Of a stretch of DNA of 64,000 nucleotides, positions 15,534 to 18,015 are shown piece after piece (the stretch's first letter is position 1; each line of letters starts with the position of its first letter). A program made the translations under genes and the position numbers. The notes beneath the pieces are model-generated. The model ran no database searches. It was not told the origin of the DNA and saw only the letters and a list, made by a program, of their open reading frames with translations. Location of the stretch: contig NZ_LNAL01000006.1 in NCBI RefSeq assembly GCF_001483135.1, forward strand, positions 930,003-994,002. The letters run 5' to 3'. The DNA comes from Solirubrum puertoriconensis (GTDB taxonomy: Bacteria; Bacteroidota; Bacteroidia; Cytophagales; Hymenobacteraceae).

Positions 15534-16265
15534 ATGCTCCGATTCCGCCTTACCTCCGGCTACGCGGTAGCACTGCTGGCCCTCATGTTCCTCACCCAAG
15601 AGGTACGCATGAGCCTGCGTATGCTGCTGATGCGCGCCGTGTGTGGCTGCTGGGGCAACCGCACTTTTAGCGAGTGGGAAAGCTGCGCTACTTGCGCCGC
15701 CACCGAGGCCGGGCAATTAGGCGGGCAGGCCCTGAGCGCAATACTACCCTATGCGCAAATGTGGGTGGGCTACAAATTGCTCGACGAGGTAAACCAAACG
15801 CGCACGCGGGCGTTCGGGCTAGCTTTGGTATTTGCCGGGTTGCCATTAGCCCGGCTCAGCTCGGCTACCCTGGCCGCCGGCCCCGAAACCTACCTGATGC
15901 AGCAGCTCATGGGCGAATGGGGGGCCAGCTGGCTGGTTACCATCATACTGGTGCTGTTATTGGTGGTGCCGCCTGCCATTCGGGCCCACGATGCGCTAAT
16001 GCACCCCAAGCGCGGAGCGGTGTTTCTAGGAATGTTGCTGGTGCCGCTGGCGGCCAATGCCGTGGTGGTTACGGGCGTACTAAACCCGTTGCTGCACTCG
16101 GGAGTGTTGGTGAGCCATGGGCCGCTGCACATGCCTTGGCTGGCCATGCTCTGGCTGGCTGTGTTAGGGGTGGTGCTGGTAGCCACATGCCGCTGCCTGA
16201 ACCTAGGCGAAGAAGCGAACAGCATTTCCTGGTTGCGGCACCAACGCACTCCTGAGGTAACCTAG
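15534..16265 (+). CDS. Unknown polytopic membrane protein with Cys-rich loop
   Basis: A 243-aa protein of no family I recognise. Four to six hydrophobic segments can be seen (near 8-22, 95-120, 135-155, 165-190 and 205-225). After the first one a short loop carries four Cys (CGCWGNRTFSEWESCATCAA), which could bind metal or form disulfides. ATG 15534 is preferred over a TTG at 15492. The TAG stop (16263-16265) is part of a CCTAGG site. Neighbours give no clue to function. Confidence 0.6.
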   Translation: MLRFRLTSGYAVALLALMFLTQEVRMSLRMLLMRAVCGCWGNRTFSEWESCATCAATEAGQLGGQALSAILPYAQMWVGYKLLDEVNQTRTRAFGLALVFAGLPLARLSSATLAAGPETYLMQQLMGEWGASWLVTIILVLLLVVPPAIRAHDALMHPKRGAVFLGMLLVPLAANAVVVTGVLNPLLHSGVLVSHGPLHMPWLAMLWLAVLGVVLVATCRCLNLGEEANSISWLRHQRTPEVT

Positions 16266-16373
16266 GTGCTGGAGCTTCTGCAACAACGAAGGCAGTAATC
16301 AGGCCCAGTGGAAGCCAGCAACCACTAAAAAAACGGGGCGCTACCGAAAAGCCACACGAGTAGGATCAACTTC

Positions 16374-16658
16374 ATGCCCACAGCTATGCCAAGGTTTGTT
16401 ATTGAAAGAGACCTACCCGGAGCCGGTAACCTGTCGCCCGAGCAGCTTCGGGGTATTTCGCAAACTTCCTGCGACGTACTGCGCGGCATGGGCCCCGAAA
16501 TTCAGTGGCAGCAGAGCTACGTCACCAACGACAAAATTTATTGCGTGTACATCGCGCCCAACGAGGATATGATACGGGAGCACGCCACCAAAGGGGGCTT
16601 CCCGGCCAACTCCATCAGCAAAGTGGCCATGGTTATCGATCCGACTACGGCCGAGTAA
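16374..16658 (+). CDS. DUF4242 family protein
   Basis: A 94-aa protein matching the small DUF4242 family: the PRFVIERDLPGAG start, LRGISQTSC, the WQQSYVTNDKIYCVYIAP centre and a final HATKGGFPANSI region. Members are small ferredoxin-like-fold proteins, some described as nickel-binding. There is no biochemical assignment here. ATG 16386 is an alternative start four codons in. It is followed by a long palindromic terminator. Confidence 0.75.
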   Translation: MPTAMPRFVIERDLPGAGNLSPEQLRGISQTSCDVLRGMGPEIQWQQSYVTNDKIYCVYIAPNEDMIREHATKGGFPANSISKVAMVIDPTTAE

Positions 16659-16667
16659 GCTGCAGCT

Positions 16668-16735
16668 CTCCAACGCTTCGACAACAAAGCCCCGGCTACC
16701 TAGGTAGCCGGGGCTTTGTTGTCGAAGCGTTGGAG
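16668..16735. terminator. Perfect 68-bp palindrome, bidirectional terminator
   Basis: Two 34-nt arms (16668-16701 and 16702-16735) are exactly complementary with no spacer. The centre is CCTAGG and the stem contains a GC-rich core (GCCCCGGC) and outer AT-richer parts with CTTTGTTGT. It separates the convergent DUF4242 and transketolase genes, so it can terminate both. The arm length is far greater than a normal terminator needs. Confidence 0.8.
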
Positions 16736-16747
16736 TAGCCTAACCGC

Positions 16748-17704
16748 TTACTTGCGGCGGCTCATTACTTTCTCAACGGCCGCTACAATGGCCGCTTCGT
16801 TCAGGCCGTACTTCTCCATCAGCTGATCGGGCGTGCCCGATTCGCCGAACGAGTCGTTTACGGCTACCATCTCGAGGGGCAGGGGCTCCTCGCGGGCCAG
16901 TAACTGGGCAATGCTGTCGCCGAGGCCGCCGTGCATCTGGTGCTCTTCGGCCGTTACTACGCAGCGGGTTTTGCGCACCGATTGCAGCACGGCTTCCTCA
17001 TCAAGCGGCTTGATGGTGTGGATGTTGATGATTTCGGCGTTAATGCCTTTTTCAGCCAGCAAGTGCCCAGCCAGGATGGCCTTCCACACCAAATGGCCCG
17101 TAGCGAAGATGCTCACGTCGGTACCTTCGTTCAGCATCAGGGCTTTGCCAATTTCGAACTTTTGATCGGCCGGGGTGAAGTTCGGTACTACCGGGCGGCC
17201 AAAGCGCAGGTACACCGGGCCTTCGTAATCGGCAATGGCGAGGGTAGCGGCTTTGGTTTGGTTGTAGTCGCAGGGGTTGATGACGGTCATGCCGGGCAGC
17301 ATCTTCATCATGCCCACGTCTTCCAGAATCTGGTGCGTAGCGCCGTCTTCACCTAGGGTGAGGCCGGCGTGCGAAGCACAGATCTTCACGTTCTTGCCCG
17401 AGTAGGCAATGCTCTGGCGAATTTGGTCGTACACGCGGCCCGTGCTGAAGTTGGCGAAGGTGCCCGTGAACGGAATTTTGCCACCGATAGTGAGGCCCGC
17501 TGCAAGGCCCATCATGTTGGCCTCGGCAATGCCTACCTGAAAGAAGCGCTCCGGGAAGTCCTTTACGAAGGCGTCCATTTTAAGGGAGCCAATCAGGTCG
17601 GCGCACAAGGCTACTACGTTGGCGTTGGTTTTGCCCAGCTCGTGCAGGCCGGCGCCAAAGCCGGAGCGGGTGTCTTTCTTCTCGGTGTACGGGAAATCTT
17701 TCAT
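16748..17704 (-). CDS. Transketolase, C-terminal subunit
   Basis: A 318-aa protein covering the pyrimidine-binding and C-terminal domains of transketolase. It has the GIAEANMMGLAAGLT stretch with the catalytic Glu that activates thiamine diphosphate, then SHAGLTLGEDGATHQ and LRFGRP. It must pair with the N-terminal subunit (19558-20442) to form the active enzyme. The two genes lie on the same strand but are separated by a von Willebrand A gene and a repeat element, where adjacency is usual. It acts in the pentose phosphate pathway. Confidence 0.92.
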   Translation of the reverse strand: MKDFPYTEKKDTRSGFGAGLHELGKTNANVVALCADLIGSLKMDAFVKDFPERFFQVGIAEANMMGLAAGLTIGGKIPFTGTFANFSTGRVYDQIRQSIAYSGKNVKICASHAGLTLGEDGATHQILEDVGMMKMLPGMTVINPCDYNQTKAATLAIADYEGPVYLRFGRPVVPNFTPADQKFEIGKALMLNEGTDVSIFATGHLVWKAILAGHLLAEKGINAEIINIHTIKPLDEEAVLQSVRKTRCVVTAEEHQMHGGLGDSIAQLLAREEPLPLEMVAVNDSFGESGTPDQLMEKYGLNEAAIVAAVEKVMSRRK

Positions 17705-17744
17705 GTATAAGGTTGGGAGAGGGTTTCAAAAAAGAGGTAGAACA

Positions 17745-17994
17745 AACTCCCCTCCTCAGATGAGGAGGGGATGCGGCAGTTTACCGCCGCTGGGGTGGTT
17801 GACGGACGTTGCTGACGCCCATACCACCTAGGGCAGACCATTGAACAGATAATGCTTTGCTGCAAGTCTGCATCAGCATTACGTTTGCGCATCAGGCACG
17901 AGATAAATGCACGAGCGAAGTTGGTTCTGGCGGCGCGGGCGCCCGTCAACCACCCCGCCCTTCGGGCACCCCTCCTCATCTGAGGAGGGGAGTT
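17745..17994. repeat. REPIN-like element: two inverted REP-type repeats
   Basis: A 26-nt sequence at 17745-17770 recurs exactly in inverted orientation at 17969-17994. Each copy is itself a near-perfect hairpin of CCCCTCCTCA-type. A second shared block, GGGTGGTTGACGG, recurs inverted at about 17943-17955. Inside each copy a second small hairpin has different sequence (GCGG/CCGC in one, GCCC TTC GGGC in the other). About 140 bp of unrelated sequence lies between. The whole unit fills the gap between the von Willebrand A gene and the transketolase subunit gene. This resembles mobile REPIN/MITE units moved by RAYT-type transposases; none is encoded here. Confidence 0.75.
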
Positions 17995-18015
17995 GGTGCA
18001 CGTCGACTACGTTCA

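Follow-up and report, generated by a model that had tools for sequence, protein, structure and literature searches.

Bidirectional terminators flanked by A-rich sequence on the left and T-rich sequence on the right are described in a part of PMC1852404, and near the gene ends of Escherichia coli most inverted repeats with units of at least 8 bp and spacers of at most 8 bp are parts of intrinsic terminators, according to a passage of PMC6060812. Hairpin stems can be both created and mended by template switching, as an excerpt of PMC8794818 describes. Here we report on a locus of Solirubrum puertoriconensis, found in a window of 64,000 nucleotides (the whole stretch of DNA that was analysed), where a perfect palindrome at 16668-16735 very probably forms a bidirectional Rho-independent terminator common to two convergent genes, judging from its sequence, its folds and the hairpins at the equivalent place in related genomes. 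The function of this element is probably ordinary and its form extreme, and the expansion of its central hexamer CCTAGG throughout the genome is the more interesting lead.

Anatomy and Gene Context of the Palindrome

An inverted-repeat search of the window recovered the palindrome exactly as the first-pass annotation had described it, 68 bp long with two fully complementary 34-nt arms that meet without a spacer at a central CCTAGG. It is the only 100% complementary one among the 16 inverted repeats listed for the window (at least 20 nt, arms at most 300 nt apart). With the base composition of the window, a spacerless palindrome with mismatch-free arms of this length is expected by chance about 10^-15 times per 64 kb, and first-order random versions of the 704-kb sample described below held 15 hairpins with arms of at least 10 nt, one with arms of at least 12 nt and none with arms of at least 16 nt. 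The predicted RNA fold of 16660-16745 is almost fully paired (-71.8 kcal/mol, z -14.8), and so is the single-stranded DNA fold of 16668-16735 (-43.6 kcal/mol, z -14.2).

Going outward from the centre, each side starts with 13 nt of GC-rich half-stem (GCCCCGGCTACCT), continues with a tract of 8 nt, ACAACAAA to the left and TTTGTTGT to the right, and ends in an outer part of 13 nt. The GC-rich core stem GCCCCGGCTACCT/AGGTAGCCGGGGC occupies 16689-16714 and closes on a 4-nt CTAG loop in the folds. It is followed on the plus strand by the T-rich tract TTTGTTGT at 16715-16722, which starts 13 nt from the centre and is the predicted tail for the plus-strand gene, and on the minus strand by the mirror tract at 16681-16688, which reads ACAACAAA on the plus strand and is the predicted tail for the minus-strand gene. 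Hence TTTGTTGT comes after the GC-rich half-stem on both strands, with 6 T in 8; G breaks up the T run, and the tract itself is base-paired within the full stem. The left outer arm CTCCAACGCTTCG (16668-16680), not alignable to the sister genomes, and the right outer arm CGAAGCGTTGGAG (16723-16735), poorly alignable to them, lie outside the terminator proper. The core was also considered as an element family of its own and rejected, as a pattern with two free pairs matched 16 stretches across unrelated taxa (one of them Hymenobacter).

The palindrome sits between two convergent genes and fills 68 of the 89 bases in the intergenic gap. On the plus strand, a gene for a 94-aa SCO4226-like protein (16374-16658; PF14026, E 1e-27) ends with a stop codon 9 nt before the palindrome, and on the minus strand the gene for a transketolase C-terminal subunit (16748-17704; PF02779 and PF02780) has its stop codon 12 nt after it. 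Directly upstream of the SCO4226-like gene lies a DUF805 RNA motif on the plus strand (16303-16370; Rfam RF03081, 71.5 bits against a gathering score of 51.1). The SCO4226-like gene has no counterpart in the corresponding interval of two sister genomes (G005 and G006), nor has the DUF805 RNA (window 16250-16686), and DNA similar to the gene is found elsewhere in two other genus members (G002 and G007). Another inverted repeat, with 29-nt arms that are 97% complementary and 198 nt apart (17742-17770 and 17969-17997), lies between the transketolase C-terminal gene and a VWA-domain gene.

In the proposed mechanism, a polymerase arriving from either side would transcribe the GC-rich core, which would fold while the U-rich UUUGUUGU is being made, and the transcription complex would then fall apart. 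A two-way terminator would be near-palindromic by design because both strands need a GC-rich stem followed by T's, and the additional 13 bp on each side would be superfluous for termination. A consensus terminator scan did not report the palindrome, which we attribute to the T tract being base-paired within the stem.

Hairpins at the Same Place in Related Genomes

The genome of the window (G000; 4.80 Mb in 8 contigs) was compared with seven other members of the genus (G001-G007). All seven carry a hairpin at the aligned 3' flank of the transketolase gene, each of them different and none of them perfect, with arms of 15 nt and two mismatches in G005, 17 nt and one in G006, 22 nt and two in G007, 22 nt and one in G004, 17 nt and one in G003, 25 nt and one in G001, and 22 nt and two in G002. 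The core shows a paired change between G000 and G006, GGCTACC/GGTAGCC against GGCCACC/GGTGGCC, and that of G006 carries one unpaired change besides. Since a hairpin is present in every relative and differs in each, the predicted terminator at this flank appears to be old, and the perfect 34-bp form, seen in G000 only among the eight genus genomes, belongs to the G000 lineage as far as these alignments tell. The recent formation that the first-pass annotation had offered as one explanation fits in part, for the perfect form, while the hairpin as such is common to all.

Long Perfect Hairpins as a Genome-Wide Class

To describe the class to which the palindrome belongs, we define it as perfect hairpins whose arms reach 16 nt and whose loop does not exceed 12 nt, counted in a main sample of 704 kb (464 kb from G000 plus 120 kb from each of the sisters G005 and G006) with heuristic gene calls and with regions taken for alignment alone excluded. 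The sample holds 51 such hairpins, 25 with arms of at least 20 nt and three with arms of at least 30 nt, and a second palindrome with mismatch-free 34-nt arms occurs in G005 and one with 30-nt arms in G006. Of the 51, 38 are flanked by convergent genes, 11 by tandem genes and none by divergent genes, with one inside a gene and one far from genes. Convergent arrangements make up 132 of 597 gene pairs in the background, against 38 of 49 for the hairpins (binomial p 2.5e-16). At least 5 T in 8 were found on both sides of 28 of the 51 hairpins, and the same test at random intergenic places gave a mean of 2.3 and a largest value of 7 in 200 trials. That said, a T-rich tail is missing on at least one side of the other 23, so the class may be non-uniform and not all of its members need be classical terminators.

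Outside the main sample, too, there are perfect hairpins whose arms reach 20 nt, 13 of them in nine other family genomes (360 kb) and three in five other genus members (160 kb). In all, the samples of G001, G003, G005, G006, G009, G010, G011, G016, G017, G021 and G027 contain them; the 40-kb sample of G027, from another family and with one such hairpin, is left out of the group totals. In 200 kb of E. coli K-12 there was no perfect hairpin with arms of at least 16 nt, the longest perfect arm being 14 nt. Extrapolated from 13 in 464 kb, with samples all drawn from a single contig, the window among them, the G000 genome would hold about 135. Long perfect hairpins are thus frequent both in this bacterium and among its relatives, which makes the palindrome an extreme case of an ordinary element. 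Such a context of convergent genes and terminators had escaped the first-pass annotation, as had the over-representation of CCTAGG, and its interpretation as a whole stands in part.

Alternative Readings of the Palindrome

It is improbable that the palindrome is an operator, a recombination site or the end of an inserted element, for instance one that brought in the SCO4226-like gene. The palindrome does abut that gene, whose interval is missing from G005 and G006, as such an insertion would have it, but the hairpin at the transketolase 3' flank is found in all seven other genus members and 38 of the 51 hairpins of the class lie at convergent gene ends. A sequence search of 38 genomes found no second full copy; it found partial matches centred on the core, about 35-43 nt long at 84-93% identity, in G000, G003, G005, G006 and G011, and a single weak match (62 nt, 76%) in G016. 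In viral contigs, no exact match to the outer arm was found.

Equally hard to favour is a role at the RNA level beyond termination, whereby a double-stranded 3' end of 34 bp would protect both mRNAs, serve as a substrate of RNase III or form an antisense pair. The full pairing and the -71.8 kcal/mol of the RNA fold would suit such a role, as would a stem that far exceeds the length needed for termination, but both the sequence and the length of the stem differ in each of the seven relatives. Rfam gave matches to miRNA and sar families that all fall below their gathering scores and would be expected of any long hairpin.

The least probable reading is an assembly or library artefact that turned an imperfect terminator hairpin into a perfect one (the first-pass annotation had raised an assembly artefact): inverted-repeat artefacts do occur in sequencing libraries, but the site is internal to a 1.29-Mb contig, all seven relatives have a hairpin there, and perfect hairpins whose arms reach 20 nt recur in the samples of 11 other genomes, other genomes of the family among them.

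Perfection and Turnover of the Arms

With the palindrome read as a bidirectional terminator, the perfection of its arms still calls for an explanation. When mismatches are allowed, the 704 kb contain 41 stems whose arms reach 20 nt, of which 24 have no mismatch, ten have one, four have two and three have more, under a score that penalises mismatches and hence favours perfect stems. About 11% of the sites aligned between G000 and either G005 or G006 are different, and because arms are perfect despite this divergence, their number suggests active correction or strong selection. Turnover is mixed at the counterparts of three further long hairpins. The 34-nt palindrome of G005 has counterparts with 23-nt arms and no mismatch in G006 and with 19-nt arms and one mismatch in G000, and a G000 hairpin with 28-nt arms corresponds to one with 24-nt arms and no mismatch in G005. 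For a further G000 hairpin with 29-nt arms (L055), the aligned gap is free of hairpins in both G005 and G006, so that, going by these alignments, gain or loss of a whole element occurs as well.

We infer that the arms are probably kept perfect by template-switch correction. Such quasipalindrome correction at replication would drive the arms to perfection and sometimes lengthen them, and the core would be maintained by selection. The outer arms of the palindrome align poorly with the sister genomes and could not be polarised against them.

SbcCD and Tolerance of Long Palindromes

The first-pass annotation had pointed to cleavage by SbcCD as a general source of instability of long perfect palindromes in bacteria, had named tolerance in this lineage as a second explanation and had proposed looking for sbcCD in the genome. 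We found sbcD above its curated cut-off (G000:C3:619827-620603) and beside it a frame of 1162 aa that is sbcC-like and below the family cut-off, which none of the 38 genomes reaches. Loss of SbcCD as the cause of tolerance is thereby ruled out, and tolerance is borne out as an observation, many long perfect hairpins being present despite sbcD and the sbcC-like gene. As to instability, cleavage of perfect palindromes by SbcCD does kill E. coli, as stated in a part of PMC8053094, but the perfect palindrome that is lethal with SbcCD in E. coli measured 460 bp, and the lower size limit in vitro corresponds to palindromes of 20-36 bp, according to sections of PMC4245961; the part of PMC7999016 consulted gives no size limit. 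At 68 bp, the palindrome falls between these lengths, and its persistence is notable, not paradoxical.

Abundance of CCTAGG

The central CCTAGG of the palindrome (16699-16704) is one of 101 copies counted in the window (others are at 16202 and 16261), against 13.7 in shuffles. Whole genomes contain 6212 copies in G000 (4.80 Mb), 5678 in G005 and 5325 in G006, against 123 in G001, 249 in G002, 163 in G003, 201 in G004 and 220 in G007, a density about 30-65 times higher in the three rich genomes than in the five other genus members. The three presumably form a clade, since identity to G000, used here in place of a tree, is 88-89% for the two sisters and 78-80% for the others. Of 644 copies in the sampled genes, 573 are read as C-CTA-GG; in this context CTA makes up 573 of 981 leucine codons, as opposed to 1182 of 21388 elsewhere. 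Of the aligned CCTAGG sites of the window, G005 keeps 59 of 86 and G006 61 of 88; for other palindromic hexamers the figures are 574 of 970 in G005 and 527 of 994 in G006. In the five other genus members CCTAGG stands at one of 133 aligned sites, and the commonest alternatives listed are CCCAGG, CCCAGC, CCGAGG and CCTGGG. Two further palindromic words, CGATCG (96 against 0) and CTCGAG (538 against 14; both strands counted), are commoner in the rich genomes (704 kb) than in the five others (160 kb), at lower absolute frequency than CCTAGG.

The hexamer is also found in hairpins, in 13 of the 100 whose arms reach 12 nt and in 9 of the 51 whose arms reach 16 nt. Its density per kb is 4.9 in hairpins, 3.2 in the rest of the intergenic DNA and 1.1 within genes. 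CCTAGG as a hairpin-specific feature was nonetheless rejected, as its place at the centre is largely explained by its genome-wide abundance. Among the three methyltransferase families searched (C5, N4/N6 and D12), none is shared by G000, G005 and G006: PF00145 occurs in G006 only, PF01555 in G000 and G006, PF02086 in none of the rich genomes, and G005 has none of the three. Vsr endonuclease was likewise rejected as the driver, as G006 alone of the rich genomes has it and it occurs also in G001, G011 and G016. A search of the open-access literature found no paper on CCTAGG expansion, nor one that names CCTAGG together with Hymenobacter, and nothing recognised as dealing with the hairpin class. 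In a part of PMC1939737, GCCTAGGC is given as a palindrome of unknown effect, and the exact word is below expectation there, the opposite of what we see here.

Comparison with Known Systems

A reading that joins these observations, which we offer as tentative and rather doubtful, is that in this family on the order of a hundred or more terminators per genome, by extrapolation, would be kept long and perfect by template switching despite SbcCD, and that a CCTAGG fill resembling that of the cyanobacterial highly iterated palindromes (HIPs), in one group of the genus and with no shared methylase of the searched families, would enter terminator hairpins in the manner of Neisseria uptake sequences. 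In this hairpin class, bacteria with SbcCD genes supply naturally occurring perfect palindromes of as much as 68 bp, on which one can ask how long and how perfect a palindrome SbcCD will tolerate and how hairpin arms keep their perfection. The contrast in CCTAGG within one genus could open the origin of iterated palindromes to testing outside the cyanobacteria.

CCTAGG resembles HIP1 and the alternate HIPs of cyanobacteria as a lineage-specific iterated palindrome, its density of about 1290 per million bases lying within their range of about 500-2500, and like them it is confined to some close relatives and present inside genes, as far as the consulted part of PMC4390886 describes them. It differs in its host, which belongs to another phylum, the Bacteroidota, and in that the cyanobacterial HIPs have a matching methylase (a passage of PMC4390886), whereas the CCTAGG-rich genomes share none of the three families searched. 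Quasipalindrome correction predicts perfect arms together with multi-base compensatory change in hairpins, according to a section of PMC8794818; here the process is putative, as the ancestral arms cannot be reconstructed from the relatives compared. The closest likeness is to bidirectional intrinsic terminators, which in the parts of PMC1852404 and PMC5381666 consulted share with the palindrome a GC-rich hairpin, A-rich left and T-rich right flanks, tail-to-tail genes and compensatory change in the stem; what sets the palindrome apart is a mismatch-free stem of 34 bp, against a maximum arm of 14 nt in the 200 kb of E. coli K-12.
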